DNA of 64,000 bases from Sphaerolaimus hirsutus (taxonomy: Eukaryota > Nematoda > Chromadorea > Monhysterida > Sphaerolaimidae), in the NCBI GenBank assembly GCA_964036195.1, contig OZ038455.1:6093855-6157854 (forward strand). The letters run 5' to 3'. The position numbers were made by a program, and so were the translations under genes. Within the stretch, counting starts at the first letter, position 1; each line of letters starts with the position of its first letter. Below are positions 16,620 through 63,700 of the stretch, piece after piece. The notes beneath the pieces were generated by a model. That model was not told the DNA's origin and did not search any database. It saw only the letters and a list, made by a program, of their open reading frames with translations.

Positions 16620-16675
16620 GTTAAATATATTTTTTACCAGCGAATTTTAAAAAAGTGTCTTATATCGTTTTTGTT
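16620..16675 (+). repeat. 56-bp filler at deletion junction (copy of 2702-2757)
   Basis: Identical, same orientation, to the sequence at the start of the spike-gene intron. It separates the last polymerase codon with family character from the last ATPase codon. Confidence 0.9.
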
Positions 16676-17163: not shown

Positions 17164-17171
17164 AGTTTTTA

Positions 17172-17630: not shown

Positions 17631-17745
17631 TATCCAGAACCTTGAGCCAACAGACTTGATTGATGAACGTTTCTGAAGTATTAAGATTTTTTAAAAAAAA
17701 TTTAAATGTTTTTAAAAAATTTAAAAAAAATTTTTTGATTTTAAT

Positions 17746-20063: not shown

Positions 20064-20070
20064 TTTTTTA

Positions 20071-21033: not shown

Positions 21034-21044
21034 CTTTTTCTTAA

Positions 21045-22160: not shown

Positions 22161-22204
22161 TATTTTTAACAGTGATAATGACACAGTAATTAAGTAGGAA
22201 GGGT

Positions 22205-22432
22205 GATTAATTTCTGGCCTAAAATTTTAGCCATTTCCACACCTGCTGATGAGGGTTGATAGAAAACGACATGATAAAAATTCACCAGGTGCCATCACAC
22301 CGCTGTGTTTGAGCGCAGCGAAAACACAGCGGTGGGGAATGATGGCACCTGGTGAATTTTTATCATGTCGTTTTCTATCAACCCTCATCAGCAGGTGTGG
22401 AAATGGCTAAAATTTTAGGCCAGAAATTAATC
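22205..22432. repeat. 228-bp near-perfect palindrome
   Basis: Left arm begins GATTAATTTCTGGCCTAAAA and the right arm ends with its complement. The arms pair almost completely around a centre near 22,318 (GTGTTTGAGCGCAGCGAAAACAC). Tips match the repeat family at 4.7-5.4 and 10.7-11.2 kb. It separates the integrase gene from the retroelement frame, whose stop lies 11 bp beyond it. Flanks are weakly inverted too (AGTAGGAAGGG versus AGTAAGGATGGG read from the other side). Confidence 0.92.
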
Positions 22433-22442
22433 CCCATCCTTA

Positions 22443-25997: not shown

Positions 25998-26114
25998 TCC
26001 AGGCGATATGGATGAGCTGCCCGCGCTCCAACCCAGTGTCCTCCGAAGCTTAGACCACTTACCTGTCTTTCCTGCTTCCTTTCCTGCAGCTTGTCTGCTT
26101 GTCCCAGGCGCTTC

Positions 26115-34410: not shown

Positions 34411-35450
34411 GGTCGACCCACAGTGGTCATTTTGCTTTGCTGATATGCACATTTGAAGCCTAATAACTTGGCCATTTCTGGGCAAATTTGTAACGATTAA
34501 CACTTAAAATGATGGGTGAAACCTGCAGATTCCATTTTTGTGGTCGAATTTTTGATGTCAAAATTCTGTATGTCGAGTATACTGTTTTTCAACACTTTGA
34601 AAAATTATATTTTTTACTTTTAACTAAGACTTTAGAATAAGAGTTGAATAAGAAGTTGAGGCACAGAGTGGTCAAAAGTACTGAACTTTTTTTCAAAGTA
34701 TACGTCAACGTTATTTTTACTCACCCCCTGAGTACAGAAAGCGTAAAGTAATTTTTTTACTTTTACTTATGAGAAAACAGAAAATTACTTTTTTACTTTA
34801 CTTTTCCCACCAGAAAATATAAAAGTGAGTATTTTTTGGAATTTTGCCCAAATTTTCAGACTAAATAACTAATTTTTGTACCTTTTGGACAATTTATTTT
34901 ATGTGTTATTTGCCTAATTTAAGCTTTTTTGTGGAGAAAAAATTATTTTTCACTTCCTTTCTTCCTTTTTTCCATCTATGTCTTGAAAAAGCCTTTAACA
35001 AAGCCTATCTGAAATAGGTTTTCTGTACTAGAGTACTTATCTTGTAAAAAGTATACATCAAAGCAAGTAAAGGTACTTTTTTCAAAGTATACATAAACAC
35101 AGAGACGTATCCAGGATTATTGAGTGTGGGGCTGTTTGTTAAAAGAGCCTCGCAAATGGGGGGGGGGCTCAGCCCCCACACCCCACCCCCTTCCAATTTT
35201 TCCTTCATAGTGATGCAATGGTGCAATGGTGCAAAACTTTAAAAATCGACACCAAAATTTTCCGGGGCTTTACTTGTCTCACCCTGAGAAAGGGGGGTGG
35301 GGCTGCAATCTTACAGAAATTTTTTTGCACCTGTCAGAAAATGAAAATGGACATTTTTGCACTTGCTGGAAAATGGAAATGGTGGAAGATTGAAAATGGA
35401 AAGCAAAATTTGCATAGAAATGGAAAGAAATTGCAAAGATGTTACCAGGT
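34410..35450. other. repeat-derived AT-rich stretch, no gene
   Basis: Low-complexity sequence with runs of TTTTTACTTT and a G-run near 35,158. Open frames here lack coding character. Confidence 0.4.
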
Positions 35451-35452
35451 GC

Positions 35453-35925
35453 CGGTTCCGCAAGTGGACAAGTTCAGAGTTAAAACACAAGAGTTGAGTA
35501 AAATGACAAATGGCAAGTTAAGGGTAAAGTTAAATGATAAATGATGAGTTAAGAGACAAGAGTAAAGTTAAATGACAAATGATTAGTTAAGAGATAAGAG
35601 TAAAGTTAAGAGTCAAGCAAGTGTATCCAAATCTTATTTTTTGTATCCAAATCTTATTTTTTTGTATTCAAATCTTATGTCGAAAAATAAGAGTTGGATA
35701 CAAAAACATATAATCTGGATATGAAAAAATAAGATTTGGATACACTTGCTTGACTCTTAACTTCACTTTTATCTCTAAACTAATCATTTGTCATTTAACT
35801 TTACTCTCAAATTTACTCTTGTCTCTTCACTCATCATTTATCATTTAACTTTACTCTTAACTTGCCATTTGTTATTTTACTCAACTCTTAACTCTTAACT
35901 TTTCCACTTGCGGAACTGGCCCCAG
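35453..35925 (+). mobile_element. intergenic copy of introner-like family 3
   Basis: Starts GTGCCGGTTCCGCAAGTGG after CCAG and ends CTTGCGGAACTGGCCC followed by CAG. Interior arms are AGTTAAG/CTTAACT minisatellite. The intergenic copy has the same CAG flanks as those in genes. Confidence 0.8.
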
Positions 35926-39709: not shown

Positions 39710-42700
39710 TCAGTCCCTCTCCTCAGCATCATCAAATTCCTGGGGCGAATTCCACAAGTACACAAAAAGTGACAAGAAAAGTGCCAAGTGGCAAATATTC
39801 ATGTTGAGCTAGCGGGATTCTCTCCGACCTTTGGTCCGGCTTTGCGGTATTCTACGCGTTTACAAGTCATTTTGTGAATAATAAAAAAATCTTTGGAAGT
39901 TCATTGTTGCACGTTCGTTCTCGCGTTCGCGTATTAACGTGCACATAACTGTCAAGTAATTTTATGTACGAAAATACTTGACACTTATAACTTTACTTGT
40001 TCTCCATGTTCTTGTATGACCTACCATTACCGCCTGCAATTTTTCTTGCCACTTGTCCACTTGCCGAATTGGCACCTGTTCAATGGTGTCCAAATTTGGC
40101 GCTCCACAGATCTTCCCTCCAAAACTACTAGACGCTTTCCTGGACACAAATTACATTAAAAAGTCAGGCAGACGTAAGGCAACCGACGCGCGAGTAAAGC
40201 CCTACACACACTAGTTGACATCAAAAGTCGTGTCAACTAAATTCAACTCGATTTTGGTTAATTTTGTGATTTCGATTTTCCTATGTGAGTTTCCAAGATG
40301 GAGCACATATATTTTTGCATCGTGACTAGCATTGAAAAAAAACGACCTATTTTGAATATAATGAAAATATAATTAAATATTATCTCAGAAAATCTCTCAA
40401 GAAAAAAATATAATTAAATCTCTTGGGTCATTTTCGAAAATATAATTAAATCTCTGAGAAAATCTCTTGCAGTTCAAAAAAATCTCATAAAATCTCTCAA
40501 CTTAATTATGATTTAATCGATATTTCATGGTGTTTGAACCATTGAGAGTAAATATTAAGCACATGATGTGTTGTTTAACCGTTTCATTCACAATTTCATA
40601 TGATAAGAGCATATTGTCTACCATGGCACACTTTGTAAAATACTACTTGTATTTAGTATCTGAATAATGAACAAATATCTGGTTTAGGCAAAAAATTTTC
40701 CTCATAGTAGAATTCATTACTTTCACGTGTGATGACCCCCACAGAATTGATCAGATGACTTTTTCACCAGAATTTTGTAACTATATTTCCAAAGCATGCT
40801 GTCAACTCTTTAGTTGTTAAAGCGGCTAGAACCCAGTGCATAAGTTTACCCATTGCACAAGTCGCAACATCCAGTGCCAATGTAGCCCCAGTGCTTAGGT
40901 ACAGCGCTGTACTTGAGCACTGAAAAAAGCTGAAAAAGTACCAGTACTCTCTTTTGTGTATACTTCTTGAAAGTACTTGAGTACAGAAAATGTATGTCAG
41001 ATTACTTTTTTATTGACTCTTACTGCCACAGAACAGAAAAAGAGGAGGAAAACTACAAATACCGTATATCCTTGAATAAGACCCCAGGGGCGTTATTATT
41101 TCGTCAGAGGTTTTGGAGGGGGGAGTTATTCAAGGGGGGGTACTATTCAAGGGGGGGAGTTATTTTTTCCTCAGAACTTCCAGGAAAACTTTCACCTTAT
41201 GTCAACATTCTGTCAACACATCTAATGCAGAAAATGACCAGTTCACCAAGAACAAAAACAACGTATCCATCCTAAAATTCGTGTTCATCGGCGTCTGAAT
41301 CATTCAAAAACACATTGTCGTTTTACCAGAGGGGGGACTTATTCAAGAGGGGGGAGTTATTCAAGGGGGGCGTTATATTTTCCTCACCTGGCCAACAGGG
41401 GGGTGTTATTCAAGGGGGGGTATTATTCAAGGGGGGGGTCTTATTCAAGGATATACGGTAGGTGGAAAATAGCAAAAAAAAGTGTATATAAGCAAATATA
41501 TAGTTAAAATTAGATGAAAATTGGTAAAAAAGCACATGAACTAATGAATTTGGAGGTGATAATGAGCAAATATAGAGAGATTTTCTCAAGAGATTTTCTC
41601 AATCAGAAGAAAATATAATTAAATCTCTCTTGAAAATTCTGGAAAAAATATAAATCTCAGAAAATCTTATATTTTCAGTGATTTTCTGAGATTTTTTAAA
41701 TATAAATCTCCCAGAGATTTTTTCAATGCTATGTGTGATGCGTTTATGTGTTATTTAGTTGACATGAATTATTTAGTTGACATTCAGTTGAAATGAATTT
41801 GCGGTGTCAACTAGTGTGTGTGGACCATAAAGGCCAAAATTTCGTGAGCTCGCCCTCGTATCGGGCGCCTTACGTGAGCCTTTCGTTTTAATTGAATCTG
41901 GCCCCTGGACCATTCGATGGGCGCTTTCGGAGTGCTGTACGTACGCTGCGCGGAGACTCTAGCTAGAAATCTGTCGAATACTGAGTAATTTATGTCCGTG
42001 TGGAGAGTCTCCAGTGAACGGAGCGGCGGCCAGAAACGACGGATTTCTGCGGGTGGATTGGTGAATTTTGAGTGTTTTTAAATAGAGAATTAAAACTATG
42101 AATAAAGATTTAAGAAATTTAACTATGAATAAAGTATACTGACCGTATTGGCTTGAGTATTCACCAGGGAATTACTTTTTTATCAGACTTTTTTGAAGGG
42201 TATCTATTCAAATGTGGGGAATTAAAAGAGTTAACTTTTCTAGCTGAGCATTTTTCTATCAATACATTTCACGAAAAATGCTTTATAAACTGAATAACAT
42301 GCCATTTTCGTTCAAATTGGACACAGCCAATTTTTGTGGATAAACAGGGAATATTTTTTCCTCACTCGCTTAATACGGTTAATAGGGGAATTATTCAAGA
42401 GGGGGACAATTATTCAAGTTGGGGGAATTATTCAAGTTGGGGGAATTATTCAAGCGGAGGGGGGATCATTCATAGGGAGGGGGCAATCATTCAAGTTGGG
42501 CACCCTCCCAACCCAACCATTAATAGGCGGCGGGTCAGCACAGTCGAGCAAGCGCATGGGCTGCGACGACCTGCCCACCACCATGGTGGAGATGATGGCG
42601 TTCAGCGCCCCCAACGAGTTCGTCCTCGAGGGCGGCGTGCCCAGCGGCGTGCACCCCGAGCGCGCGTCGTCCGGCAGCTGCAGCTGGGGGCTACTTCCGG

Positions 42701-45700
42701 GCACTGTAAAATGCCCTGGGGAGTGGAAGCTGTCATGTAAAGTGTAAGAAGTCATGTAAAATGCCCTGGAAAATGGCAGATTAAATGTAGATATTTTACA
42801 GGGCATTTTGCATGACTTATGACACGTGTATGACATTTTGCAGTTGATGGGGAAATTTTACATCACTTTTGGCAGTTTACATGACATTTTGCGTTTTACA
42901 TGACTTTTGACTATTTTTGCATTGCATTTTACATGACTTTGACACTTAACATGACGTTTTGCATTCTATAGGACATTTTACATGACATTTTACATTTGGC
43001 TTTACATTTTACTTTTACAGGGCATTTTACATGACTTTTATATTTTAAATATGCAGTGCATTTTACATGAATTTTGACATTTTACATGACTTTTGAAATT
43101 TCACAGGACATTTTACAGGGTCTGGGAGTGGCACCTGGTCGCGCTCGCTCGCCCCCAATGTCCAATGGGGGCTGTCCTGATTTCCAGTGTTCAGGGGGTT
43201 GCGTTATCGGTGCGGGGTGGATATTGGGTTTTTACAATGTGATGGATAGACATAGAGTGACAATTGTTTTTTTCGTTTGAGTTTGACTGCAGGCATGATC
43301 TAGAAAACGTATTTACTTCTAAAAAAATTACACCCGGGTGATAATCGAGGTTATACGGTAGCTATGTTTGGATTTTTACCTGTCCGCTGTGGCTGTTCTC
43401 ACTTTCTTCATCGATTACATCAGTCGCAATGAACTTGTCGTGCACGTTGTCTGCGAAAGTGTGGAAAGTTCTCGCCAGATATTAAGTAGTTATTGTTCAA
43501 AGTGATGAACAAAATATGGGGTATTTGTTCTTATAACTTTTGCAAATTTATTTCGTCAGGCGTTTTTGAGGGGGGGGGGGGATTTGAGGGGGTTATTCAA
43601 AAGGGGATAATTATTTCATCAAAATTTCAAGCATGTTTCTATCAAATTTGATAAAATAAGCTTTATTAACAAAATAACATGTTATTTTTATTTAAATTCG
43701 ACACAACAAATTTCTGGTGTGCTTAAATTGGGGATTTTTTTTTTGGGGGGGGGGGATTATTTGTTCCTCTCTCGATTAACAGGGGGAATTATTCAAGCAA
43801 TTACAGTAGATCCTATTTTACAATTTGTGCAAACTATCACATCATCTCACCTCCGAAAAGCACATTCACTGCATGGCTTGGAAACTCGTACGGCATTTGG
43901 CGGCCAACTGAAACGGTGATTAAATCGTACACTTTTTTTATTTGGGGTAACCTAATTTCGTTTTAGATTTCGAATTTAGATTCAAATTTCACTTGACAGA
44001 ATCCAATGAGTATGGACCACATTGCAATCGTTTGAAGTGAAATACATTTACGCGGCCTCTCGACTTAATAAACTCCTTGGCTCAGTGCCAACTTCCCAGT
44101 TCCCATTAGGTCAGGATGGTGTGCGCACCTTATTGGACCACCTCACCCCGGAGAATTGATTAGGTCGCAATAAGTACCCGGGGGTTTATTTTTTAGAGTG
44201 AGAATTTTGAGGGGGCTATTTCGAGGGTAGGTGGGGCTATTTCGAGGTAATACGGTAACCCGAGTTTTCCACATTTTATCTCACAAAAATCACAAACTTA
44301 ACAAAACCGGACCCACCCTTGACTTTCATTCGATTTTCATCCCCATTGTGCTGCGGAAATGAGATCTCCCACGGCTGGGCGGGCGGCGGCCGCACGAATG
44401 TCACCACTGCCGAACCGTCGCTCGCAGATTCTGTGTGCGGAGTTGACGGGTTGACTTGACAGTGATGGGTGATGGTGATTTTCAGTTGACGGAGATTGCG
44501 AGGTGAACTCGAAATTTACGTAACTCAAGTACTCAAGTACCGATTTATGAATAGGTACTCAAGTTCGAGTTTAATGGTGTTATTTAACTAGTGTATGTAG
44601 CGATGGACTGTGTCCACGGCGATGACGCCATTGGCGTTTGTTGATTTTTTCCAGTTTTTTTCCAAACCTTCACCTTCAGTTCTTTTCACCTTTTATTGCG
44701 GAGCGCTTTAAGATGCCATTGTAAGCAAATAGATGTTGTTCAATTTAAAGACTAGGCATGTTTAAAAAACTCCAAAGAAAATTAAGCCCCCTCAATTAAC
44801 TCCCCCATCAAATTTGACTGAAAGCTGCAAACTCCCCGGGGGTCTTATTCAAGCACAGACCAAAAATAACCCCATCCCAAGCCAACCAATAGACGGCTGT
44901 TCTACGAGTCTTTTCGGTGGATTCGCGGCACCGAACGATTCCAGCGACGCGTCACTCGTTCCCAAATTTATGCCGCGGTCGTGCGGAATAGGACAATGCG
45001 ATAGAACGTCCTGGGGGCAGTCCCAGACCCTGTAAAAAGCCCTGTAAAATGTCAAGTGTCGTGCAAAGTGTTTAAAGTCATGGAAAATGCCCTGCACAAT
45101 GGCAACCGAGACGGCATTTTCCATGACTTTTGACACTTTGCATGACATTTGACATTTGCCAGGACATTTTACGGGGTCTGGGACTGGCACCTGTCGTTCG
45201 CACAGCGATACTTTTCGCTTTGGGAGGGGGGGGGGTAGAGATGGGAAAGTTGGATTTTTCAGATACCTTTTTTCGGGCAAGCCGATTCGTAAAAATGGTG
45301 ATAAAACGAGTCGGGTTTCCCGAAAATTGTTGGGCGATGTAAGCTTTTTGACAGATATCGTGAATCTGGGTGAAAAACGTTAGCAGGGGGAAGCAAAATC
45401 ACAGCGAAAAAATCGGCGGTGGAGAGAGACAAATGGATGGGAATAACTACGGCAAAAAATCCGCCGGCATAAGTGTTACAATTTTTTAGTTTTTCTTAAA
45501 ATAACTTCATATTTCCGAATTTGTCTAGAGAAAAAGTAGGTATTCTGTTTTTTTCTTCTACTGGTGGAGTAAAGCTTCGAAAAGTCGAAACAGTATTCAA
45601 ATTTTTGAATATATTTTCACCAGGAGCGCCAGGATTTAGGCGCCAGAGCAAAATGGCGCCAAGCGCCAGAAGCGCCATGGCGCTTTTCCATCACTAGTCA

Positions 45701-48700
45701 CAGCACTCCACCCACCCAACTTTGCACCACAGCTGCTTCACGATGGGTGTCAAAAAAATTTTTTTACCGAAAACGGAAAACGGAAAGGTAAAATTTTTTC
45801 ACTTTACGGAAAACGGAAAACGGAAAGGTAAAAAAAAATTTCTGCCGGAAAACGGAAAACGGAAAGGTAAAAAAATTTCACTCAGCGGAAAACGGAAAAC
45901 GGAAAGGTAAAAAAAAATTGTCGGCTGGAAAACGGAAAATGGAAAAATGGAATGCCGGAAAACGGAAAACGGAAAGCAAAATTTTCATGGAAACGGAAAA
46001 CAAATAAAGTGAAATTAGCACGGTAATAGACAAATTTGCAGAAGGAAAACCTGCATGCAGGTTTGCCTGTTTGGATTTGATTGTGGTAGCTGTACATTCT
46101 GCAACTATGGATCATGCCTGTAACTTCACTTGTAGTTCAAGCTTAACTGAACCAACAAAAAATCATCAAAAAGTAGCCATAACGGCCATAGGAAAGGAAA
46201 CACTACGACAATTTCACAGTCTAGAAGCAGTGGGAATCACTGATGACCCCTATGCAATTGATGACGACATTGCAGAGGAGATGATAATAAATAGCATAAA
46301 ATTCAACGACAACAACAAACGATACTATATTGACTGGCCGTATAAAGAGAGTATCAGTGACCTGCCCACGGGAAAAGCAGAAGCCTTGGTATGGTTTAAA
46401 TCACTGATAAGAAGATTCAACAAAGATCCAAACTTATTCAAACAATACCGGAAAGTTTTGGATGACCAACTAGAAAAGGGAATAATTGAGATCTGTAACG
46501 ACAATTACACCAGCCAGTAATCACACCGGGCAAATCGACATCATGCAGAATCGTGTACGATGGGTCGGCAGGTGAGCCCAGTTTCAACGAGTGCCTTTTT
46601 AGAGGACCAATTACAACACCATTAGCACTGGGCTTACTCCTGAGGTTCAGGGCAGGCAATCTAGCATTAATTGCCATTATTGAAAAGGCATTTTTGCAAA
46701 TAGGATTGCATGACCAAGCTAGAGACTACACACAATTTTTCTGGCTGAAAGATGCCTCAAATCTCTGCCTCAAAACCAGTAACTGAGAATAACTTAATAG
46801 TACTTCGTTTTACTAGTACTTAATAGTACTGTTTGGACTCGTCTGCAGCCCAGCAATTTTGGGAGCAGTCATAAAATACCATTTAAATGTAACAATAAAC
46901 AACATGAATGAATATGAAGAAAATGAAGGGGAACAAAACCAGTTGGCAATGATAATAAACAACATTTACGTCGATAACTTCATCATGAGTGTCACAAATG
47001 AAGTTGAAGCTTTAGAACTATATTACAAAGTCAAAGCTTTATTTAACCAATGTTCTATGAACATGAGGGAATGGCTGTCAAACTCCAGATCAGTCATGAA
47101 TGAAATAGCAGAAAACAACAGGAGTCCAAAGGTGAATAAAATTGTCGCAGTAATGGGCATGAAATAAAATCACCGAACGGACATGCTGGCAATATCAACA
47201 CCAAAATTGCAATTTGACAGCATCACAACACCAACCAGACGAAACTTGAATAAATTATTGGTGTCAGCATATGACCCAATTGGGTTCACAGCACCTGTTT
47301 CACTGACCCTGAAATCCCAGTTGTCAATGCTGATCCAAGAGACAAAAACAACACAATGGGATGAGCCACTTGAAGATAAATACAGATTGGAAAAACAATG
47401 GAAAAATGCCAGAAAACTGTAAATCGAGCCAGAAAATGGAAAAATGGCCTGGTAAAACGGAAACGGAAAGGCAAAAATTTTTCAGCCGGAAAAACAGAAA
47501 CGGAAAGGTAAAAAATTTTCAGCTGCCGGAAAACGGAAAACGGAAAACGGAAAGGTAAAAATTTTGCGGCTGCCGGAAAACGGAAAACGAAAAGGTAAAA
47601 TTTTTTTGGCTGCCGGAAAATGGAAAACGGAAAGGTAAAAAATTTTCCTGCGGAAAGGCGGAAACGAAAAACGGAAACGGAAATTTGACACTCTAATCAC
47701 CACTAGTGATGTAAAAGCGCCATGGCGCTGGCGCCTGGTGCTAGCGCCAAAGCAAAAAGCGCCATGGCGCTTTTGGCACTTGACGCCTTTTTCCTGTGGC
47801 GCCATTGGCGTTTGGCGCTGTGCTACGGAAAAGCGCCATGGCGCTTTTGGCGCTTGGCGTTGCGATGCCGTGGCGCCATTGGCGCTTGGTGCTAGTGTTT
47901 TAAAAAGCGCCAAAAAAGCGCCAAGCAGTTCAACAAATGTTCTAACAGTAAATGTGCTACTGTAAGTGTATTCCAGGAAAAACAATCCCTCTTCTTGCTT
48001 ATTTTGTCAAACATGTTAATGGAATTACAAGGATATTCAACATTTGCCCCATATAATGGCCCTCCACACACTAGTTTTCAATGACACCAAATGGCAAATA
48101 GTTCCAACCTACTTCAAAGCTTGCTGACGAGCCGACGAACAACGTTCAAATGCAAAGTGTTACATTATGTTGCAATTGAAGTTGAAATGTTGAAAAGAAT
48201 ATACCTAGTTGTATTATATGTGCAATGCACGGCTGGTATCAAGGATGTTTACAACAATGGTTAGTGTTACTCATGAGCAAGCTTTGAATTGGGATAGGAA
48301 CTATTGGTTTACATTGAGTGTCATTATCACCTGGTGTATGTAGAGCCAATCCGACTACAGCCCTGTGTAGTACACACAGAAGATGAATGTATCCAACCAA
48401 ATCAGAGGGGAGCGCCAGCACCAGCCAATGGAGGTCAGGCACACAAAAATGCGGAAATACACACTTTCAACTGAAATATACAATATCAAAAAATATGAAC
48501 ACTTTTTTTAGATGGTTTGCCATCATAGACCTAAACTCCCAAGTCCCAACTATAAAACAATCCTGACACTATAAGACCCCGTTTACACGGATTTTTTGTG
48601 ACGACTCGACAACAATAAAACGTTCAATAAATTGAGTAAGAAGGTTCCATATTCCTGATAAAAAGTGGTCAACTTTACTATCTACCTAGGCGAATATGCA

Positions 48701-51700
48701 TGCAAAATTGCAGAATTGTGCTTGTTATGCACAGTTATATACATTCGGAAACATTTTGCTATTGTCGCAGGCTGTCGGAAGTTGTCCAACAACTGTCCGA
48801 CAACTGCAAAAGTTTTCAAACGCCTTCAACTATTGAGCTACAAGCACAATTGTGCAATTTGACATGCATGTTCGCCTAGGTAGGGTGTATAATTGACCAC
48901 GTTTTTGTCATAAATATGGAACCTTTTTACTCAACTTTTTGAACTTTTTAGTGTTGTCGAATCGTCACAAAAAAATCCGTGTAAACGGGGCCTAAAGAAA
49001 AACGACTTATATCTTGCGTCTTAAATGACAAAAACAGCCCTGCATTAGCGTGGCTGCACTTTGGCGCTGGCGCTATTGGCGCTTGGCGCCAACATCCTCT
49101 GGCGCCATTGGCGCTTGGCGCCGTGGTCCAGAAAAGCGCCATGGCGCTTTTGGATGGCGCTATTTTGCTGTGGCGCCATTGGCGCTTGGCGCTAAGGTCT
49201 AGAAAGCGCCATGGCGCTTTTGGCGCTTGGCGCCAAAAGTCTGGCGCTTTTTACATCACTAATCACCACAGCTAGTGATGTAAGAACGCCATGGCGTTTT
49301 TGAGGCTTGGCGCTACCATGCTGTGGCGGCATTGGCGCTTGGCGCCATGCCTTGAAAAGCGACCTGGCGCTTTTGGCGCTTAGCGCCAATTTCGCCTGGC
49401 ACCAGGAACGAAATGCCTGGCGCTGGCGTATGGCGCTAGCGCCAAAGCAAAAACCGTCATGGCGCTTCTGGCGTTTGGCGCCGGTTTTTCTCTGGCGCCA
49501 TTGGCGCTTGACGCTGTGGTCGTAAAAGCGCCATGGCGCTTTTCACATCACTAACCACAACCGCAGCGGCAGCGCCACTGGTCACTGCCGGGGTTATTAT
49601 TTGCTCGTGTTGAATGCACGCGTTCGATCTGGACAAGTGCATAGCGCCGCTGCCGGACACGTTCGATAGGGAGCCGTCTGGGTGCATGATGGAATTGAGT
49701 AGCAATTTAGTAATATTTACCATATTTCTTCTAATATTTCTAAATTTCTTCGAAGGGCATACCTCCGATAGACGGGCAACTCCAATAGTACGGCAGGTTT
49801 TGGCACATTTTTGCACTCACGTAAACAATAGAACGGCAGCCTCCAATATAACGGTAGGGCTTGGCACGTTTTAGCACTGACGAAAACAATAGAACGGCAC
49901 CTCCAATAGAATAACAGGTAACAAGTTCACGGAAAAATACAACGGCGCTCTTCTATTAGAAGAAATACGGTAGATAGTGAGCGCCAAAAGCGCCTTAGCA
50001 CTCTTTTTCAAATCAGCACCAAGCGCGACTGCTGTCAGGATTCCTTAGGCGCTAGCGCCAGCACCATGGCGTTTTACCATCACTACTTCTGATATAAAAA
50101 TAGGTCACCTCTGGGCAGCGGCGGCTTTTTGCATTCAGCGAGCTCATTCAGCGGCACCAATGTGACGGTGTCATCGACGCCGACTTTTCCGCAACCTTTA
50201 TCTGCATCTGGACGAAATTCAATTCGCCCGATAGGTTTTTATGCGGGCAGCTAATTGAACTTAGATTGTCACTTTACAAACCATTTATTTACATTAGGTT
50301 TGACACCTTGCATGATATTTGAAATTTTACATAACTTTTGACACTTTGCATAACATTTTAGACTTCACAACGCATTCATTTTACATGACTTTCGACACTT
50401 TGCATGACGATTTAAATTTTACATGGCATTTTAAATGAATTTTGACACTTTGCATGACATTTCACATTTTACAGGGTTTGGGAGTGACACCGGCCGGCAT
50501 CAATTTACCGTATCGAATAAGGTTTCATTTTCACAAAACTTCTAACTCGACAGATCGGGTTGCCCGATAAAGATGCAGTCGGGCAATTTGAATCTCTTCC
50601 CTGACTCTTGTAGCTGCTCGCCGTAGTGTTCGCGCCATTTCGGCTTGGGCTTTGAGTTTGACGGCTTCTCGTTGTCCTCGGCGCCTGGGGACAATTCCAC
50701 TAGTGGGCAAGTGACGAAAATGTGATAAAGTTGTGACAAAATGTCAAGTTGCACGTTTGCCATTTTACAGGGCATTTTACATAGGTAACTTTCGACAGTT
50801 TGCAGGACATTTTGCTATCTATAAGGGTCTGGCAGTGCTAAGCTTACTTGTCAGATTACGTGACTTAGCTTGTAATTTTATTGTCACTTGTCCCCTTTCG
50901 CAATTGTCACCTGAGTGGTTGTCCAATTTGAGTTGCATGGCTGAGTCGTTGTGCGACTGCTGCAGCATGGCTGACCGGCGGCAATGGAAATTTTGAAATT
51001 TGAAAAATTTGAGTTGCTTTTTGAGCTGCTTTTTTAGAAAAGCAAATTGCTTTTTTTATGTAATCATTGGTTTGTGGAATTATTGACGGGAAATTGTAAT
51101 TTTTTTACGACGGTCAAGTATGCGTAAAGTTTTCTGTTGCAAGTAAGATTAGACAAGGCGAATAAATATGTTGAATCGATGTTAAATGTTGATGAAAACT
51201 ATCATCACTAATTCATTTTCAGACTGTTTTAATTGTGTTTTCGTAAAAACTAAGCAATTACACTTCTGGCTGGGCTCAATTGGTCTATTTTAAAAGCCGA
51301 TTCCATCCAAAAATCCACAAAAAATGGTCCAATGTCAAAAATTCAAATCCATTTCTTCAGACAATTTTCCACGGCCGCCGACAAAGTGGGGCGGGATTTG
51401 TCGGCTGGCCGGCCGATGGTCCAATCGTTTGAAGTTCTGCTGGCGTCGTCGTTTGATTGGTTCTCGCTCAGGCGCTCTTTGCTTCTGGAGTTGCGATTTT
51501 GAAATATACCGTATTTCTTCTAATAGAACGGCAGCCTCCAATAGAAGGGCACCTCTTATAGAATGACAGGTTTTGGCACTTTTTATTTTGGCACGTTTTG
51601 GCACACGAAAAGAATACAATGGCAGTCTCCGACGAAACGGGGCTGTGTGGTTCTGCCTAATTTACCGTAACCTGCATTTTTGTTTCACTTGAATAATTCC

Positions 51701-54700
51701 TATTTCACTTAGAAATATTTGCCTTTCTTGCCTGCTGTAAACAACGGGTGATAAAAGTAATGACATTCATAATATTTAATCTATGTTTTTATTAATCTTT
51801 ATAATTCTTTATGTCAACCCATTTTCTAACGACATGCGACAGGTGCAAAACCTGATATTTGCTTTAAAGTAGACATAATAAGCAATTTGCTCGTGTTTGA
51901 AGGTTAAATCGCCCGTATGTAAGGCCGTTCTTGCCGAAAGAACGGCCCAGTCTACGACTACTGATTTCTGATTTTAATGATTACTTTGTTTGATAGAAAT
52001 AAAATATAAACCAAAAGAACTTGAATAAAAGTTGTATAAAAGCTGAAGTTTCTGCACTGAACAACGCAGGAAAACGTAACCCCAAATAGTGTGAAACTTT
52101 ACAGGGGCCTCCAATAGAACGGCAGGTAAAAACATGACGAAAACCGAATGGCGCTCTTATATTTGAAGGAACTTACGGTAACTTAATTTCGAAATTGTGG
52201 AGTTATGAACTTTTAGACGCCTAATAATTTATATACCGTATTACCTCGAATAACCCCATTCGAATTGTCCCCCCCTCAACTTTGCTGGCGAAATAATAAA
52301 CCCCCTGGGGGTATTTCGAGGTATTACGGTACCCTCCATCTAATCCAAACCAAACCCACCTGCACCTGTCCTCATAAAGCATGTGCAAATCGGTCACAAA
52401 GCATGGATACAGGCCGGGGGAAAATAGCAATTGAATCACCCATTGGTCTGGAGGCAGTCCCAGACCCTGTAAAATGCCCTATAAAATGTCAAGTGTCATG
52501 CGAAGTGTCAAAGGTCATGTAAAATACCCTGGAAAATACCAAACGTATATTTGCCATTTTCCAGGGTATTTGACATGACTTTTGACAATTTGCATGACAT
52601 TTGACATTTTACATGGCATTTTACAGGGTCTGGGATTGGCACCTGGATCGCCCTCTGGGACGTGTCGATTTTCGTACAGCATTATCACTACTTGAGTCAT
52701 GTAATTGTACTCGGTTATTGATGATAGGAAATTCATTGCGCGCCGCCACTTTGGATCGTGTTCCTGGTGAAAAGTTTTTTTCGTATAATACGGTGTAGTC
52801 TCGTTATTTTTTAAGCAAATGCATCAAATATAGCACACCCTAGGAATTCTGGAATAAGTCCCAAACTTATAATCATTTTCAGTTGTTTTTAACGGTGGGG
52901 TTATTCGAGGGCAATAGTAGGCTCATTGTCAGGTTTGGAAGTTTGATCTGTAAAATTGGTGTTTGTTTGCTTAAGAAAAAGCAACGTTAAACATTGACTG
53001 TTATCGATGAGTTCTATAAATATTCCATTTCACTGGCGTGGGGAACTTATTCAAACGGGGGGGGGGGTGCTCATTCCAGAATTCCAATCCAATACATCAA
53101 TCTCTATCCCCCCATGCTGTATCAAGTTCATGACGCTGTGCAGATGGGACTCGCTGGTGAAGTAGAGCCGCGTGCGCACGTGCCGCATCGGCGTCGCTAT
53201 GCCCACAGAGAACCTGCGCAGTGCAGGATTGTGCAAATTGATATTATAACTGGTGCCAGTCTCGCACCGTGTAAAGTGGAGAGTGAAGTGTTGAATGTCA
53301 CGTGAAATGTCCATTTTTATGCAAGTGTGAAAAGTTTAGTAATAAAATCTACCGTATTTCCTCGTAATAACCCCCCCCCCCCCACCGACCCCTGTGGGGT
53401 TTGTTTTTCATAGTGCAAATTTTGAGGGGGGGTTAAACGAGCTGGGGGGCTATTTCGAGGAAATACGAGACCCCTTTTTTCACTTCTAATTGACATTTTA
53501 CATGACATCTGACAATTGATTTTACGCTTTACACGGTAAATAAATCCATACCGACGAACTCAGGATTGAGTCTGGTCAAATTGACCTCCTCATCACCGGA
53601 CATCAAATGTTTCAAGTCATCGCGTAGTTTTCCCATGAGCGGGGCGCAAATCCCTTGCGCTATGGCGGTTTTGCCCTCTTTTCGAACGCCGTATTCCTGA
53701 GATTTGGTAGGGTTGGAAAATTGATTTTTTTCAATTTTTGGTTTTCGGTCGAGTCAAGAATCTACCTAGTTTCGAGTCATACAACTATAGAGTAGGGCGG
53801 GGTATATTCCGCTAGTGGAAAAGTAAAAAATGATTTGCATAATTTTACTTCCCATTTTATTTCTCACTTGTCATTTCACTTCTCACCCATCATTTCGCTT
53901 CTCACTTCATTTCACTTCTCATTTCACTTCGCTAAACTTAACGCACCTTGAGCACTTTATCAAATTGAAGATCACCTAAATATCCTTCTATACTTCAAAA
54001 TTCCCTAAAACTCACCAGCGGCACTTGAATGTCGGCCATATTCTTGACGCACAGGTAAAATCGCTGAAATTGGTCGTGTTCGCGCAGCGAAATGTCCGGA
54101 TTGTGCTCGATGTCGTATTTCAGATTATCGTAGATATCTGGCGGGCAATTTCATTAGCCCGAACATTTTTTCCGGCTGTCCTAATCATTGTTTCCGAAGT
54201 TCCGTAAATTCCGGAATTTGTTATTTCTTACGGGCTTGACTGCAAAGAAATCCTCATTGGATTACCCTACACACACTAGTTGACCGCGACACCAAGACCA
54301 AATGTCAACTGGTTCCCATCCCAATTCAAAGCTTGCTGGGGCGAGCCCACGAACGTCGTTCATTCGCAATATATTCACAAGGCTCGTATGACGTGTATCT
54401 GCACTGTACACAGCAATGCGTAGTGTTACTCATCAGCAAGCTTTGAATTGGGATCGGCACCAGTTGACATTTGGTGTCATTGTCAACTAGTGTGTGTAGG
54501 GCTTTTGACGCAAATTTGTCAACGAATGATTTCCGAAACAATGAACCGGGCTGTTCTGAGAGAAACGTGTCGGGCTAATTAAATTCCGTCCCTGGTATTT
54601 TGGAAATGTCATAAGCGGCCACAGGCTCCACATTGTTGCTACGTTTGCTAACACCGCAAAAATCGTGGTAAAGCTTGGTCCAACGTTGTTCGGCCATTGC

Positions 54701-57700
54701 GCACGTTTCATCGTGGTAAAATGTCTTGTCTGAAGTTTTTGTGAGGATCAAATTGATTATGGTATAGAAGTTTTCACTTGGATCAGCCTCGCATCTGAAC
54801 AAGTGACATTTTTTGGCAAATTTGCCAATTTACTGTAAAGTCTTGTGAAAAAATGATGGATGCACGATAAAAATGCTTACTTACTTGTCAATTTGACAGG
54901 TGTCTGAAAGATTGTCTGGCACTTAAGACAGAATTATCAATCAAATGTCAAATGACAGGAAAAATGGCACTAATTCACACCTGGTTTGTGCAGCTGCCAT
55001 CCATGTAAAGTCGCACAAATTTTGGTGATATACTCGGCTATTTCTCGACACATGCTTCCGGGGTTTTTCACAAAATGCAGTGCGTCGGAAATGGCTGTGC
55101 GATTCATTGGATTGAGTAATGCCTTTTCTTCATCTGTGAAATCACCATCTTTCTGGGGGCACTCACGGACCCTGTAAAACGCTCTGGAAAATGGAAAATG
55201 TCATGCAAAGCGTCAAAAGACATGTAAAATGCCCTGTAAAATGTCAAAATGCCATGTTCAATAGTTGAATGTCCTGCGAATTGTCTAAAGTCATGAAAAT
55301 GCCTTGTAAAATGGTGAATGATATGCAAAGTGTCACAAGTTATGTAAAATGTCAGATGACTTGTAAAAATTAAAATAAAATTTGACATTTTTTGGGGCAT
55401 TTTGCATGACTTTGGCACTTTGCCTGACATTTGACATCTTACCAGTTTTTCAATGACTTTTGACACTTTTCATAACTATTGACATTTTACATGTTTTTTT
55501 ATGACCTTTGACACTTTACATTTAACAGGACATTTTACAGAGTCTGGAAGTGGCACCTGCAGAATGTCATGCAGAAATTTGTATTTGAGCTCATCTTGGA
55601 AGAATTTTGCATGATGATCATCATCTAGAAGTACTTCTGATTGATTCACCATTTGTGCCAAAATTGGGGGTAGATCCCCTTCGAGTGCCAGCATGCCCTG
55701 TGTGGGGATGTTAGATAAAATTTTCACCGTTTTAGTAGGAACACTGAAAAAACACACAGATACATGAATAAGTAATAATACGCAGTGAGATATCATTTTG
55801 TGGAAAAATTGAATCTTGTCAAGCAAAAAATACATTTAGGATGAAAATTGTAAAATCCACGGGATTTCTGTGTGTTTCTGTCAAAGTCAAGTAGGAAACA
55901 CAAAACTAGGTGCAAAGTCTATATTTAATTGTTTTTGAGACACAAAGTTTCGAGAGTATTCATGCATTCAGAGTGGCGGACGTGTATAACAAAATTGTGA
56001 CGGCGTTGTTGGATTATTGCCAATTTGCCGTACTTGACACACGTTTATCATTTGACCAGACAAATTTATTTTTAAAAAAACTTCTCAATTCCTAAAACTT
56101 ATCCTAACATCGACCACTTCCACTCGCAAATAGGTGATTTTTTTAAAAAAACCTTGGCAAAGGCGGCAGCGGTCATCATGACCCTTCCCTCATCGCTGGC
56201 ATAGATCTTCAAATCGTGTCTGAAGGTTGAATGCAGCCTCAAGAAACCCCTCCCTGCCTTGTCGTTGCAGCCTCGCATCGCAGGGTAGAGGGTGCGGAAA
56301 AGTTTGCCTAGAGCCTCCGCTTGAATTACGCCCGCCTCGGTTAGCTCGCCGCCTGGGTGGCGGTTTTTAAAAATGTTTTCTTTCAGAATGTAGGTTTTTT
56401 AAAACTGATGACTATTTATGTGCGTATTTACCCACATACCTAGTTGCATTTTTAAATTTTTTGTTTTTGACAATCATTTAGTGCATCTGCAAAATAAGTG
56501 CATGTAGAACTGGGAGATCTGGGAAGATTTGCAAATGGGATATTCTCATTAAACTACAACCATTGGTTATTCAATTATTTTCTGCGTGCCAACTGGTCAA
56601 TATCATAGGTATTTTTATTTACCTAAATTATAACCTAAATAGCTGTGGGTGGACTGCTAATTCTACTTCCTTTGTCAAATTTTCTTTTCTTTTTTTGCCG
56701 TTTCCCGGATCCCCCATTGCAAAAATTCTCAATTTCTTTATCCACTCCGAGATGCAAAATGTTAAAAAAATTACCCCATTTTAAAATAAACAGAATTGCC
56801 GGCGCGTGGTCAGCTTCAACGGCGTTTGATTCTTCACTGTTTTTCGATGTTTTCCAGGCATACTTCAATTGAACTTTGCGGTTGATGCCAGACAAATGGC
56901 CGCGGCTGGAAAGGGGGTGGAATTGGGATGTGAATTCACAACGCTTCACACAGATCACATCATTTGTTGGCCATGAATCACAGCAAATGAAGTGTTCATG
57001 AAGTGCATTGAAGTGGTCTGATGTGGTTTGAAGTGCCCACACGTCATGATCACACTTCAGAGCATGATCACGTCTGATTGCCAAGGCATGCACTTTGCAG
57101 ACACTCCACAAATTTCACTACTCAATTCTCTACAGTTGAAGTGCGAGAAACTTTGTGAAGTGTGTTGGAGTGTTTGCATGAAGGTACTTAACCACAGATC
57201 ACGACAGATCACCAGCACTGTTTTTGCCGCAAATGCACACCAAGTACAAAACACAGATCTATCTCACCTGAGCACCTTGACCACAGTGTTCCATCTATTC
57301 CACACTTTTTCCTTGCTCTGCAACTGTGCCCTGCATTGGGTCAAATCTAATTCACCACGCGAGAGGTGTGAATGTGCCATGTCAGTGTTTTGGGATTTTA
57401 TTGCATTCATCTGTGTGTGGAGGTGGGAAAATGGGGGGGGGGGGGGTTCTGAGATTTTCAAAGATATGGTGATGTTTTTGAACATTTCATAAGTTTTTCC
57501 CCATGATTTTTGTAATGATTGTTTGGTGAATGTACTTTTTGGCACAGCCGAGCAAAATTTATTTGTATTTACCCAAAATACCTGTGTATCCCATGTATTT
57601 TACATTGATTTTCTCATCGAATTATGTTTCATTCTCCTAGGTATATCTTTAGAAATAGATTACTTAAAACATTAAACACTCAAAGTTCAAGAAAATATTT

Positions 57701-60700
57701 TTTCCCTGATTTTTTTTGTTCTTCCTAAAAATGACAGTTTTAACAAGTTATCGTTAGGATTCATCATGTATTTAAATCAAAATACCTTCAGTGATGTACG
57801 AGAAATGATGCCTGATGAACATGAACATCTGGAAATTCACTATCAAGTGACATCACAGAAAACACATCAGAAAACACTTCACACACACAGAAAACACTTC
57901 ACACTTCACACACATCCAAGCACATCACAAACCCATCATTTGCAAGTCAAAATTCTAGCCAACCTTTTCAACAATAGCTCTCTTTTTCTCCTCAGTTTCT
58001 TGCATCATTTCGCGGGCCAGGGTCAACACTTTACGCAAAACTGTCGGTCGTTTGATTTTTAATTGACCTTTCTTTTCACCTCCTTCCGCTCTGAACAGGA
58101 CGTAAAGTCTGCGGTGTTCAAATGTATGTTTTAAAGCCAATTTTTAAGTGTGATATGAACTTAAAGGTTTTTTTGTTCAAAATGTGTCACTTAACAGAGC
58201 GGTCGGTTTAGGATCGGGTTTAAAAGTGTGCGAGTAAAAATACCCTGCGAAACGCACGCGACGCATTTTTCTGTAATATGTTCAAAACTAAAATGTTCAA
58301 AAAAGCAAACAAACTTTTTCAGCCTTTTCGTTTTTTTTTGTCTTTGAGTGAAAGTTCGATTATTAGTATCCCTTTCGCGCGTTTTCGAGTATCTAACACC
58401 TAAAATAAATTGAATGCAATACTTTGCGGTCCACCGAGTGAAAGAAAAGTGATTTGCAATTTACATTAAAAAATCATTAGTTTTGCACATTTTAGAAAAA
58501 AGAGCATTAGCATCCGTGCCTTTCTAACGACTCCAAAAAACGCACCTCTCATCCTTGACAGTAAACTTCAACTTCTGTTTGGGTGTCCTGTCCCCATGTC
58601 TGATAATTCCCAACACGCAGCGCAATTCCAGTTTGTGCCCGTCGGCGACGGGTTCCCACGGCTGCCGCTGGGTTTGTCTGAAGGGTGTCGGGTAGGTTTG
58701 CAGTTTTTAAGGGGTTTTGTGGGTGAGATTTTTGATGCCCTTTTTGACTTTGAGGCTGAGGCTGGTAAGGCAGTAACATGTAAGATGTAATGTAGGTAAT
58801 CTAGCATTTGTCTTTTTTTACATTTGTCATTTTACATGACGTTTTACACTTTGCACGACATCTGACATTTTACAGGGTCCAGGATTAGGTAACCACCTGG
58901 CTGCCAAAAAGTTACATGTTCAGCGGCGGACTAGATATAGCAGGCTCAAATTCAACTTCGAATCACCAACTTGTCCTTGTCCCCTTTATTAGGTGGATGT
59001 TCCCTTTCATCGCCGCCCCACTCGCTCTCATCAGATCTGGTCACTTGGTACGGGATGCGTCTGTATGGGAATTATAACAAAAACAACATGAACTCTTGAA
59101 GTGTGTGGACTTTTTGCTGTGAATGGATGTATTTGTGGCGAGTTAAAGTAGCTGTGGAGTGGTATTTGTGAAGCAGTTCACTCGGCCACCATGTATATCA
59201 TGAGATGTTTTGCATGGTTTTTTTCACACACTTTTTCCTGGCATTCAACTGTTTTTATAGTCATTGCGATTTCTGTTTTTAAAGTAATGTATGTGGAATT
59301 TTCTGTCAGTTGACATGTCTGGTGATGTGGGATGAATGAATGGGTTGTTTGTGAAGTTAATTCAACAAGCCAGTGTTGTGAGTACCAGTATGGAAATACT
59401 TCAGTGCAAAGTGCAGATATGATAAACTTCTGGGGCCAGTTCCGCAAGTGGACAAGTTAAGAGTTAAAAGTTTAGAGTTGAGTTAAATGACAAATGGCGA
59501 GTTAAGAGTAAAGTTCAAGTTTAAGAGAAAAGATAAAGTTTAAGAGTTGAGTTAAAATTTAAGAGTTGAGTCAAAAGTTGAGTTAAATGTTAAGAGTTGA
59601 GTTAAAGGTTGAGTTAAATGTTAAGAGTTGAGTTAAAGGTTAAAAGTTGAGTTAAGAGTTAAGAGTTGAGTTAAGAGTTGAGAGTTAAGAGACAAGTGGA
59701 AAATGATGATAAAAAAATATAAAAAAATAAAAATGTGAAATTGGTATCGATACAACGCTCTCAAGATCCGAATTAATTTTTTTAATTTTTTTATTACATT
59801 TTTCCCCCATTTGTCTTTTAAATCAACCTTTAACTCACCTTTTAACCTTTAACTCAACTCTTAACTCAACTCTTAACTAAACTCTTAACTCAACTCTTAA
59901 CTCAACTCTTAACTCAACTCTTAACTCTTAACTCAACTTTTAACCTTTAACTCAACTCTTAACATTTAACTCAACTTTTAACTCAACTCTCAAATTTTAA
60001 CTTTTCTCTTAAACTTAAACTTTTCTCTTAAACTTTAACTTTACTCTTAACTCGCCATTTGTCATTTTACTCAACTCTTAACTTTTAACTCTTAACTTGT
60101 CCACTTGCGGAACCGGCACCTGATGTGATTGTATCAAACTCAAAGTTCAACTACCTAGGTACATCTTCAGTAAAATAACAAGAAACAACAACCAATCCAA
60201 ACTAACTTCACAGGGGCACAATTCCTCAATATGATATCGCCAAGTATGCTGCCCGCATCTTCATAGTACTTGTCAGAAGACTTGACAAAACTGAATCCAT
60301 TCACATCGCACACATAGGACTTGCCCCCTGCTCGCAGCAGGTCAAAACCGCAGATGGTTTGCTGTAAATTTGTCAAACATGTTCAATGTTCAGAGCAGGG
60401 TTGGCAAAATCTCAGAAAAATGTGGAAAAATTTGAGAATAAAATAAAATGGAAGATTTCAAAATAAAAATTGCATAGAAATCCGAATTTTTTAAAATTTC
60501 TGAAATATTGTATAAAAATTCATATTTTTGTAAAATTGCATAAAAATTCATATTTTTTTGTAAATTTTTTGTCTTGCTGCTTGAGTTTCTACCTGTTTAT
60601 CCATGGAACTGGGGGCAGTCTCAAACTTTGTAAAGTGTCACATGTCATGTAAATAGTTATGCAATTTCATTGTCATTTCAGTGTGTAGTGTGAAGTAAAG

Positions 60701-63700
60701 TGTCAAATGTCATGTAAAATGTAAAGTAACGTGTCAATTGTCATGTAAAGTTCAGTAATAGAATGTTGTTTTTTGTTTTGATTTACATTTTACAGGGCAT
60801 TTTTCACTTTGGCACCAGAAATCGGTGAACGAGACAGGAAAGTTAAGAAAACTCACCCCAAATATCCTGACAAGCTGCGCAGCAATGACCTTCTCATGGT
60901 TGTTCAAAATAACGGGATACCTGATCTCTTTTCCATTCCTATCCCTCTCCACTACCCCATCCAATGCCGGCGCTTTCCTGGAGCCAAATTCGATTAGAAT
61001 GTAAGGCGCACGTAAGGCGCGAGTAAACATTTAATTGTGTGCGTAAATTACGGTGCTTCAATTGTGTGCTTAAATGTGAGGCACCTTACGTGCACCTTAC
61101 GTTTTTATTGAATCTGACACCTGGCCTCAGCGTGTGCGTAGAACTCTCCGATTGCGTATACCTGCGATTGGTGGAGTGGTACTGAAATGTGGAAGTTAGG
61201 CATAGAAAGCAGTGAGAATTAATGTGTGATGTGTGGTGAAGTGGTGTGAATAGATAGACTTCACATATTCTTCAGAATGCTTCATGATGCCGTTGGGTGA
61301 AAGCAGCATATCAAATAAATTGAGAATATACCATATTTCCTCAAAATACCCCTCTCCTCCTCAAAACGGCCACTGTGAATAAATGAACGCCCCTCGAAGT
61401 ACCACCCCCTAATTGAGCGTAAATGGAACGTAAATGAAAAAAGCTGCGATTTGTAATCAATGCAATGCTAGTTTTTTTACTGTCTGCATAGGTACTCTGC
61501 AGTGAAATCGCCAGCCAAAACCGCAACAGTAAACGAGCGCCAATGGACAATTAAATGGCGCCATGGCACGGCGCTCTGTGAGCACGCCCAGACCCTGTAA
61601 AGAGCCCTATAAAATGTCAAATCTCAGGCAAAGTGTCAAAAGTCATGGAAAATGCCCTGCAAAATGGCAACTCGGTTACAGGGCTTTTTACAGGGTCTGA
61701 GAGTGGCTTGGCACGCTCAAAAAGCGCCAATACACCACTATGTAGGTATTTAGGACACCAATTCACCTTGATATCAATGCCGGCGGCGGGCACAAAGTCC
61801 TCGTACAGGTACGATTTGTCGCGGCGCACGTCGCAGTCAATCGTGTACTGGCTGCTCTGGTTGCCCACCTGTGAGTGAAGGTCGGGGCGGTGAGAAGAGA
61901 TTATAGCGGCGCCAGGATTTTGGCGCCAGCGCCAGGCGCCAATATGGCGCGTTTTGATTGATATTGATGAGATTGTATTCTGTGTAATGATGTAGCCACG
62001 GAAATTCAATACCAGAATTATGTCCACTCATATCAATAAAAATAAATCTGTGAAAATAAAAATAAATAAAATTATTCATCGAAAGACCTTCATTGAATAA
62101 CTTGACATGGAAAAGGGAAATGATGAAAATTGAATAACGTCCCCCGTCAAATTTGCCAAACAACAGTAATAACACCAAACCCCAAATTTAATAAAAACGT
62201 TAGATGCTCGACACATGAAAAAAGTTTATCGTGTATATTTGTTTTGTAGAAAATCGGGCCAATACTGGGAATATTAATCAAAAATGTGGTAAAGTAGGAC
62301 CAAAACCTTTCGAAAAAGCCTCTGCGAACCACCCCCAGTGTCCAGTGGATAGTAAATGATAATGTTATGATCGTCGGCATCCAAAGGTTTTTCCACAAAC
62401 GGTTTCTCAAATTTGACGCCATTTACAAGCAATACGTCATTTTTCTCCAACACCTCTGCTGCGGCTATAAAAAAAAATTTACCAGTTCAGAATGAGGTCT
62501 AATGAGAAGTTTTTTGAATGAGGTTTGAATTTTAAACTTTGAAATGTTGTGTGTGTTATGTTGTGATTAGTGATGGAAAAGCGCCTGGACGTTAGTGTGA
62601 ATGCGAAAAGTGCCATGGGTCTTTTCGGAACACCCGTCTAAATCGCCAAAGACGCCAGAGCAAAATGGCGCCAATCGCAAGCGCTAGGTATTTTCTTCCT
62701 GGCGTCACACAAAAAGTGCCAAGCGCCGACAGCGCCATGAAGTTTTTCATAGGGACACAGCAAAAAATGGATCCGTGAAGAGTGTGGAAGCGGCCTGGAT
62801 GAGCGTGAAGCGTCGCGCTTCCACACGTCTTCTACACGCTTCACCTAGCTTCACCATACGCTTCACGCGTATCCAAAATGTGTAAGACACTTCACCGTGC
62901 TGGCGCTTCCACACGCTTCCCCTACACACACACACATTTGCGTGGGAGCGCCATATTGAGAAGCGTGGTGTAGACGTAGTGTCTTCACACAGATTTTCGT
63001 GATGTGCGTGGATGCGCTGGGATGCTTGGTGAAGCATCGTGAAGTATCGGCGTAAAAAAAATTTCACGACGCTTCACTGCTTATCCATCCACACTCCCAG
63101 TTTTCGCTGTGCGTGCGGCAAAAAGCACTTTTACATCACTACCTAATCGGAGACATCTTCAAACCCCAACTGAAACAAAAACAAAAACAAAAACGGCTCA
63201 CAAACGTTTTTCTGCGGCGAGGTCATACTGCTGTGCGTCCTGGAGCCAGTCCCAGACCCTGTAAAAGGCCCTGTAAAATGTCAAATGTCATGCAAAGTGT
63301 CAAAAGTCATGGAAAATGTCCTGCAAAATGGTAACTCGGTTGCCATTTTGCAGGGCATTTTACATGACTTTTGACACTTTGCATGACATTTTACATTTTA
63401 CAGGGCTCTTTTCAGGGTCTGGGAGTGGCCCCTGATCGCGGAAAGCGACTGCGTGCCTTGGCACGGGAATTTTTGCAGCCACCAGTTTGCTGTACACTCG
63501 GAATCTGGACAATTAAAAAATGAATGAATGAAGATATTAAATTTTAAAAAAGAAATTGAAGTATAAAATTGAAAGTAAAAGTACAAATAGAAAGTAAAAA
63601 GTAAACGAGTACATCAATTTTTACTTAATGCAAATCGCTGTAAAAAGAAAAAAGGATAAATGCAGCTTGTTTTACCCATGTTTTTTTCCAGTATTTTGAC

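Follow-up and report, generated by a model that had tools for sequence, protein, structure and literature searches.

Probable introner transposons inserted at CAG bound introns of PPIP5K in a presumed nematode, and one family seems to carry a GG donor

Introners are a leading source of new introns; examples with terminal inverted repeats and target-site duplications were reportedly described by Huff in 2016, and non-canonical introns are said, from work by Henriet in 2019, to occur in the larvacean Fritillaria. Here we analyze a 64,000-nucleotide stretch of contig OZ038455.1 (the window), in which a PPIP5K gene contains introns whose ends are the tips of repeated inverted-repeat elements of four families (F1 to F4). 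According to the available text of a 2022 introner survey (Gozashti 2022, PMC9860276), introners among animals and land plants occur in two groups, both animal; the string 'nematod' is absent from the main text in its available form. As in that survey, so far as its text is available, repeated introns lie here in unrelated genes, with inverted repeats, a target duplication and unchanged message length, and one splice site comes from the element and the other from the duplication (the Chrysochromulina elements of the survey carry the 5′ site). The present elements differ from those in the same partial text in their presumed nematode host, in their fixed CAG target and, compared with the rare GC and GA donors mentioned there, in the GG that F4 has at its donor end.

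GA and GG donors account for about 12% of the introns examined in the copepod Eurytemora affinis (Robertson 2017, PMC5714493); they stand after AG and mostly have A at position 3. The GG donors described below are similar to those of the copepod, which always follow AG and belong to recent-looking, species-specific introns (PMC5714493). The copepod's A at intron position 3, present in nearly all cases, recurs in the F4 introns, which begin with GGA, but not in F1 intron 63,431 or F3 intron 41,904, which begin with GGG (introns are named by their first base in the gene). Whereas no mobile source was named for the copepod introns, a repeated element is the origin of GG here. Intron ends with direct and inverted repeats are likewise described for the introner elements of Amoebophrya (PMC7789003, available in part), along with non-canonical sites and hairpins; the repeats there vary and family-specific inverted repeats were not found in the portion available, whereas each family analyzed here has tips of its own and a CAG duplication. 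For Fritillaria, the possible causes of the non-GT introns that are named in the accessible part of a 2026 paper (PMC13326754) include introner transposons with weak splice sites; this animal has many such introns, but it belongs to a different phylum, and in the one gene examined here 34 of 38 introns are GT-AG. The literature searched, which was covered partially and included the available part of a nematode intron paper (PMC9169325), yielded no report of nematode introners. Introners as such were already known. This genome adds a nematode with several families, one of them apparently GG-carrying, in which insertion follows one simple rule (CAG, 3 bp) and empty sites are available.

The exons of PPIP5K were placed by hand and then tested for an open frame. 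The resulting model contains 38 introns between 39 exons in the window, and the frame is open throughout (Table 1). Its conserved part comprises 925 amino acids; among the best 120 of 7,995 matches, the closest homologues are nematode proteins, with at most 51% identity over the whole query, and ten chosen homologues show 50–57% identity to it over aligned columns. Conservation of the protein is poor after 52,366, and from there to 42,050 the exons were assigned mostly by frame continuity. The C-terminal exon 42,050-41,905 is an exception, since it has matches in nematode PPIP5K (for example, 61% over 51 amino acids, E = 1.9e-11).

In 11 of the 38 introns, element tips and intron ends agree to the base on both sides (Table 1). 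The initial annotation had proposed ten such introns; one more intron beyond the 11 (53,532-53,250) retains the right tip only. The three bases preceding the left tip and the three following the right tip are CAG in all 11 cases. Since agreement at the neighboring positions drops to between 1 and 6 of 11, we conclude that the target duplication is CAG (3 bp). A four-base duplication, CCAG, which had been suggested as an alternative flank, was rejected: the base before CAG agrees in 5 of 11 introns, and the extra C on the right is part of the element. When an element and one CAG are removed, the frame is restored exactly on conserved proteins, in line with the proposal that the duplicated CAG would provide the AG acceptor and leave the coding sequence unchanged. 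In an alignment of the ten homologues, the junctions at 61,120 (HAEA/RKAP, the slash marking the junction), 55,556 (LQ/KDGDF) and 54,591 (DISKIP/DIYD) are gap-free, and the last is invariant in 10 of 10. Two further splice points that the initial annotation had regarded as fixed by conserved exons, at 63,431 and 52,642, are as exact in the frame-open model as the other three, but lie within variable loops.

An inverted-repeat score anchored at the intron tips ranged from 9 to 22 in the 11 element introns and did not exceed 5 in the 27 others. Scores of at least 9 were reached by none of 650 cross-pairs of 26 non-element introns and by 21 of 20,000 random GT/CAG pairs taken from the window. The coincidence of element tips with intron ends in PPIP5K is not due to chance. 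Compared with shuffled windows, tip motifs were in excess for F1 (23 found, 1.2 expected), F2 (8 and 0.35) and F4 (4 and 0.45). The F3 tip motif, with 14 occurrences in the window and 12.25 expected, is not significant alone, so this family is defined by its two introns, which are 86% alike over 37 bases at the tip. The elements have terminal inverted repeats, as do miniature inverted-repeat transposable elements (MITEs) and other non-autonomous transposons of this kind. RNA folds of three element introns were far more stable than those of shuffled sequences (z = -20.8, -15.75 and -7.4), and in the fold of intron 63,431 the first and last bases come to lie close together. Another foldback element, with tips ACACACTAGTTGACA, is present at 54.2-54.5 kb, 41.8-40.2 kb and 48.3-48.1 kb; it is nested within F4 intron 54,591 and F3 intron 41,904, with 25 of 25 bases common to both, and is 81% alike over 96 bases to intron 49,555.

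Table 1. Features of the window. Positions are those of the window; the slash marks an element boundary. Alternatives are frame-keeping GT/GC-AG splice choices.
Feature	Positions	Strand	Remarks
PPIP5K gene	39710..63924	-	frame-open model, 39 exons, 1,399 amino acids + stop; 5′ part beyond window
F1 introner intron	63240..63431	-	CAG/GGGCC...CTC/CAG; donor GG; 38 alternatives
F3 introner intron	60978..61120	-	donor GT; junction HAEA/RKAP conserved
F1 introner intron	55153..55556	-	donor GT
F4 introner intron	54138..54591	-	donor GG; DISKIP/DIYD conserved; 0 alternatives
Degenerate F1 intron	53250..53532	-	right tip at acceptor; donor within element, uncertain; tip score 2
F1 introner intron	52448..52642	-	donor GT
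F2 introner intron, F1 piece inside	50685..50910	-	donor GT
F4 introner intron, F1 piece inside	50208..50600	-	donor GG; 16 alternatives
F1 introner intron	45011..45190	-	donor GT
F1 introner intron	42684..43134	-	donor GT
F3 introner intron, made longer by further repeats	40140..41904	-	donor GG; 37 alternatives
F2 introner intron	39740..40075	-	donor GT
F2 copy outside gene	35449..35922	+	CAG both sides; empty sites elsewhere
F2 copy within ordinary intron 60,206-59,061	59433..60119	-	CAG both sides
F2 copy	28820..29502	+	CAG after right tip; left part lost or diverged; start approximate

The same elements had also been noted away from exon junctions, with the same CAG flanks. This is the case for the F2 copies at 35,449 and 59,433, whereas near 60.6 kb the F1 copy is preceded by CTG on the left and followed by CAG on the right. 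The F2 copy at 35,449-35,922 is embedded in repeated sequence. When its two flanks are linked by a single CAG, they align over their full length, at 94%, to G000:C4:4662826-4663035 and C4:4768344-4768553. Both of these empty sites read GTTACCAG/AAGTGG, and the window site reads GTTACCAG/GTGCC...GGCCC/CAG/AAGTGG. Because the empty sites carry a single CAG, this F2 copy inserted with a 3-bp CAG duplication; the two sites are near-identical and may trace to one event. An empty site is thus available for one F2 copy, and for F1, F3 and F4 the duplication is read from the flanks. In two further places, L092 (G000:C9:19855415-19856097) and L093 (G000:C4:1405423-1406104), this repeat carries the window's F2 insertion at an identical position, and the joined flanks match there in two pieces; the insertion was therefore probably copied together with its host repeat. 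A search of prokaryote genomes with the F2 tip gave 0 matches.

To describe F1 outside PPIP5K, we used the 348-Mb assembly to which the window belongs. A search with one F1 intron returned 4,343 candidates, 40 of which were scored; the F1 sample consisted of the window and 39 fetched stretches, 284 kb in total, most of them picked around F1 matches. It contains 47 F1 pairs with recognizable outer tips. Equal 3-bp flanks were found in 27 pairs, namely 13 CAG, 13 CTG (CAG on the other strand) and 1 GTG. When 26 copies were read on the CAG strand, the dinucleotides at the donor and acceptor ends were GT/GG in 12, GT/GA in 4, GT/GT in 2, GG/GT in 3, GG/GC in 2, and GG/GA, GG/GG and GA/GT in 1 each. 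One tip of F1 thus tends to begin with GT and the opposite one with GG or GA, and the family is found in both orientations to CAG, the GT-first one being commoner (16 copies, with 4 reversed); a fixed orientation was rejected on these counts. Selection in genes may be a partial source of the GT-first excess. A comparison of 19 bases of the F1 tip with viral contigs gave a single match, in which the second tip was absent, and we take it to be due to chance.

Host frames of F1 copies were rebuilt by removing the element and one CAG and joining the flanks. Outside the window, 22 F1 copies have CAG/CTG duplications, and 18 of them were scanned against Pfam. At L043, the junction is spanned by an inward-rectifier K channel domain (8e-27) and is gap-free in comparison with solved Kir6.1. 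At L035, a Ninjurin domain (1.3e-11) spans the junction, which is gap-free in comparison with solved Ninjurin-2. At L028, solved IFT122 is matched at 2e-23 and is gap-free at the junction, next to which Pfam gives a weak match (0.0043); at L031, a zinc finger over the junction is weak (0.0005, below cut-off). The donors of all four are GT. Consequently, F1 is present in PPIP5K, Kir, Ninjurin and IFT122, and F4 in two genes (see below), as expected for introners that spread through unrelated genes; exact conserved junctions are observed in these four F1 hosts and in procollagen galactosyltransferase. The original proposal that the PPIP5K introns are introners is supported by ends that coincide to the base, by F1 at conserved junctions of three unrelated genes and by F2 empty sites with one CAG. 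Joined open frames of 32 copies had a median shorter arm of 94.5 in sense, 70.5 in antisense and 83 when swapped, which is weak evidence alone. Two unseeded searches for inverted pairs led no further: one that required identical outer six bases gave 8 equal-flank pairs, with CAG in 0, and in a second, on the F1-biased sample, CAG came top (18 of 80), followed by GCC (13), ACT (11) and TAA (10).

The initial annotation had derived a GT donor from a GTGCC left tip. GT is indeed the donor in 7 of the 11 element introns, but the other four (63,431, 54,591, 50,600 and 41,904) have GG, a likely family trait in the case of F4; all donors being GT was thus rejected. In the whole gene, 34 of the 38 introns are GT-AG and 4 are GG-AG, and every GG intron is element-bounded. 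We counted alternative GT/GC-AG sites from about 45 bases upstream to 200 downstream of each donor, requiring the whole frame to be open. Such alternatives exist at 63,431, 50,600 and 41,904, so GG is forced within PPIP5K at 54,591 only. The donor context is CAG/GGA in the F4 introns 54,591, 50,600 and L057, and CAG/GGG in F1 63,431 and F3 41,904.

L057 is an F4 copy in procollagen galactosyltransferase. Solved procollagen galactosyltransferase 1 is matched at 1.7e-6 and is gap-free at KYDQ/RTLT; the Pfam match (0.016) is below cut-off. Five GT/GC-AG alternatives were found: four lose 11-22 residues and one replaces RTLTVGEV, so that this second gene, too, needs the GG donor. Certainty for all GG donors was rejected, and the forced ones number two, at 54,591 and at L057. 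A genome-wide search for CAG followed by the F4 left tip, with at most two mismatches, gave 139 places, and its backwards control gave 0; flanks were read at 100 of the 139. With at most one mismatch to the pattern, CAG/GG was present in 43 of 43; among the 57 places listed with two mismatches, some are flanked by CTG, CGG or other triplets. Exact F4 tips searched without CAG numbered 8, and 7 of these are preceded by CAG. In 40 fetched stretches, chosen by the pattern for CAG, the right tip (at most four mismatches) was recognized in 25, and in 18 of those CAG lies within one base of the expected place after it. From these sequences, F4 seems to be a family with a built-in GG donor.

We consider it very probable that the elements are non-autonomous inverted-repeat DNA transposons, that is, MITE-like introners of four families, which insert at CAG and become introns when they land in exons. 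A putative transposase would insert them at CAG and duplicate these 3 bp, as the empty sites show for one F2 copy and the flanks suggest for F1, F3 and F4. In an exon, the coding sequence would run up to and include the upstream CAG, the intron would open with the element's first two bases, and its closing AG would come from the CAG copy on the opposite side; in F4, the end following CAG carries GG. We infer from sequence that the spliceosome removes the elements from pre-mRNA. The GG donors would require relaxed recognition of the 5′ splice site, as in Eurytemora affinis, and the stable hairpin might, speculatively, help by drawing the intron ends together. Several observations weigh against this reading. 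No transposase was found, though no search was aimed at one. Equal flanks at a fixed offset are lacking in 20 of the 47 F1 pairs, and 4 of these combine a CAG flank with a CTG flank; 14 of the 18 tested F1 copies outside the window have no Pfam domain, and where a domain was found, support is strong in 3 of 4, the zinc finger being weak. The copies flanked by CAG and CTG (L021:7846-8020, L024:5704-5885, L034:390-568 and L037:367-557) would not result from simple insertion; inversion or recombination between F1 copies is conceivable. Alternatively, the introns could be old and foldback elements could have filled or replaced them later, their ends meeting the splice sites by accident. Several elements do lie inside ordinary introns and off their ends (for example, the F2 copy at 59,433-60,119 and F1 copies in introns 61,766, 60,856 and 58,970), but the base-exact match of 11 introns to element tips at either end, and empty sites that show an F2 copy inserting with exactly the CAG flanks of the introns, make such an origin very improbable. 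More improbable still is that the elements are cut from somatic DNA rather than RNA, in the manner of ciliate internal eliminated sequences. DNA elimination occurs in some nematodes, and precise removal leaving one CAG would look identical here and would make GT unnecessary; yet GT is present in 7 of 11 introns, the duplicated CAG is an ordinary acceptor, and we know of no animal case of precise internal excision.

A more serious objection, though one we still hold to be unlikely, concerns the copies that begin with GG (F4 and some F1 and F3): nearby GT or GC sites could be used in their place, or the copies could stay unspliced in damaged alleles. Three of the four GG introns in PPIP5K have frame-keeping alternatives, a further point against the main reading; the GG-first F1 copies tested outside the window (L015, L017, L025, L026 and L046) have no conserved junction, and among 12 joined F4 frames scanned outside the window only L057 shows convincing homology over the junction. 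Against the use of other sites, there is no alternative at 54,591, those at L057 damage the protein as described above, and both PPIP5K and procollagen galactosyltransferase are otherwise open at conserved positions. On balance we lean towards F4 being an introner whose built-in GG donor would make non-GT introns from birth, with relaxed 5′ splice-site recognition in this nematode; more generally, the second base of the tip (T, G or A), together with the orientation of landing on CAG, would set a GT, GG or GA start. If true, introner bursts and non-GT donors, which have so far been kept apart, would be linked by a family that carries GG, and tip base and orientation would provide a source for GA and GG introns such as those of copepods. 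This reading predicts GG-AG junctions exactly at F4 tips.

The host was placed with PPIP5K and with a mitochondrial gene. In a tree of 821 columns from a trimmed alignment, the query groups with the twelve sampled Rhabditida-kind nematodes (100/100), with Trichinella and Trichuris outside and arthropods further out; its branch is long (1.22). In an earlier PPIP5K tree, the query had a branch of 3.42 and no clear place. Among the best 120 of 7,999 matches to mitochondrial COX1 (contig C762), the closest are 91 and 82% identical, and species-named ones, mostly insects and including a priapulid, are at about 70%. We take the host to be a nematode outside the sampled groups.

Scans of the window against Rfam and for tRNA gave no matches. 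Reading frames at 46,008-47,167 (+), within intron 49,555-45,366, have no relevant Pfam match; by eye, they resemble a BEL/Pao-type reverse transcriptase. A run of long reading frames occupies 12,849-22,226, where Pfam gave a weak integrase core only (2.8e-6, below cut-off) at 21,600-22,223, and one virus-like frame of the run had no homologues at E 0.001. By eye, this run resembles a Polinton/Maverick element. A 1,223-amino-acid frame at 22,443-26,114 (-) contains a retrotransposon Gag domain (PF03732, 4e-6). A 105-base inverted repeat at 22,193-22,444, 96% complementary, lies between this frame and the Polinton-like stretch; it is without known introner tips and carries CAGGTGCC on both strands.

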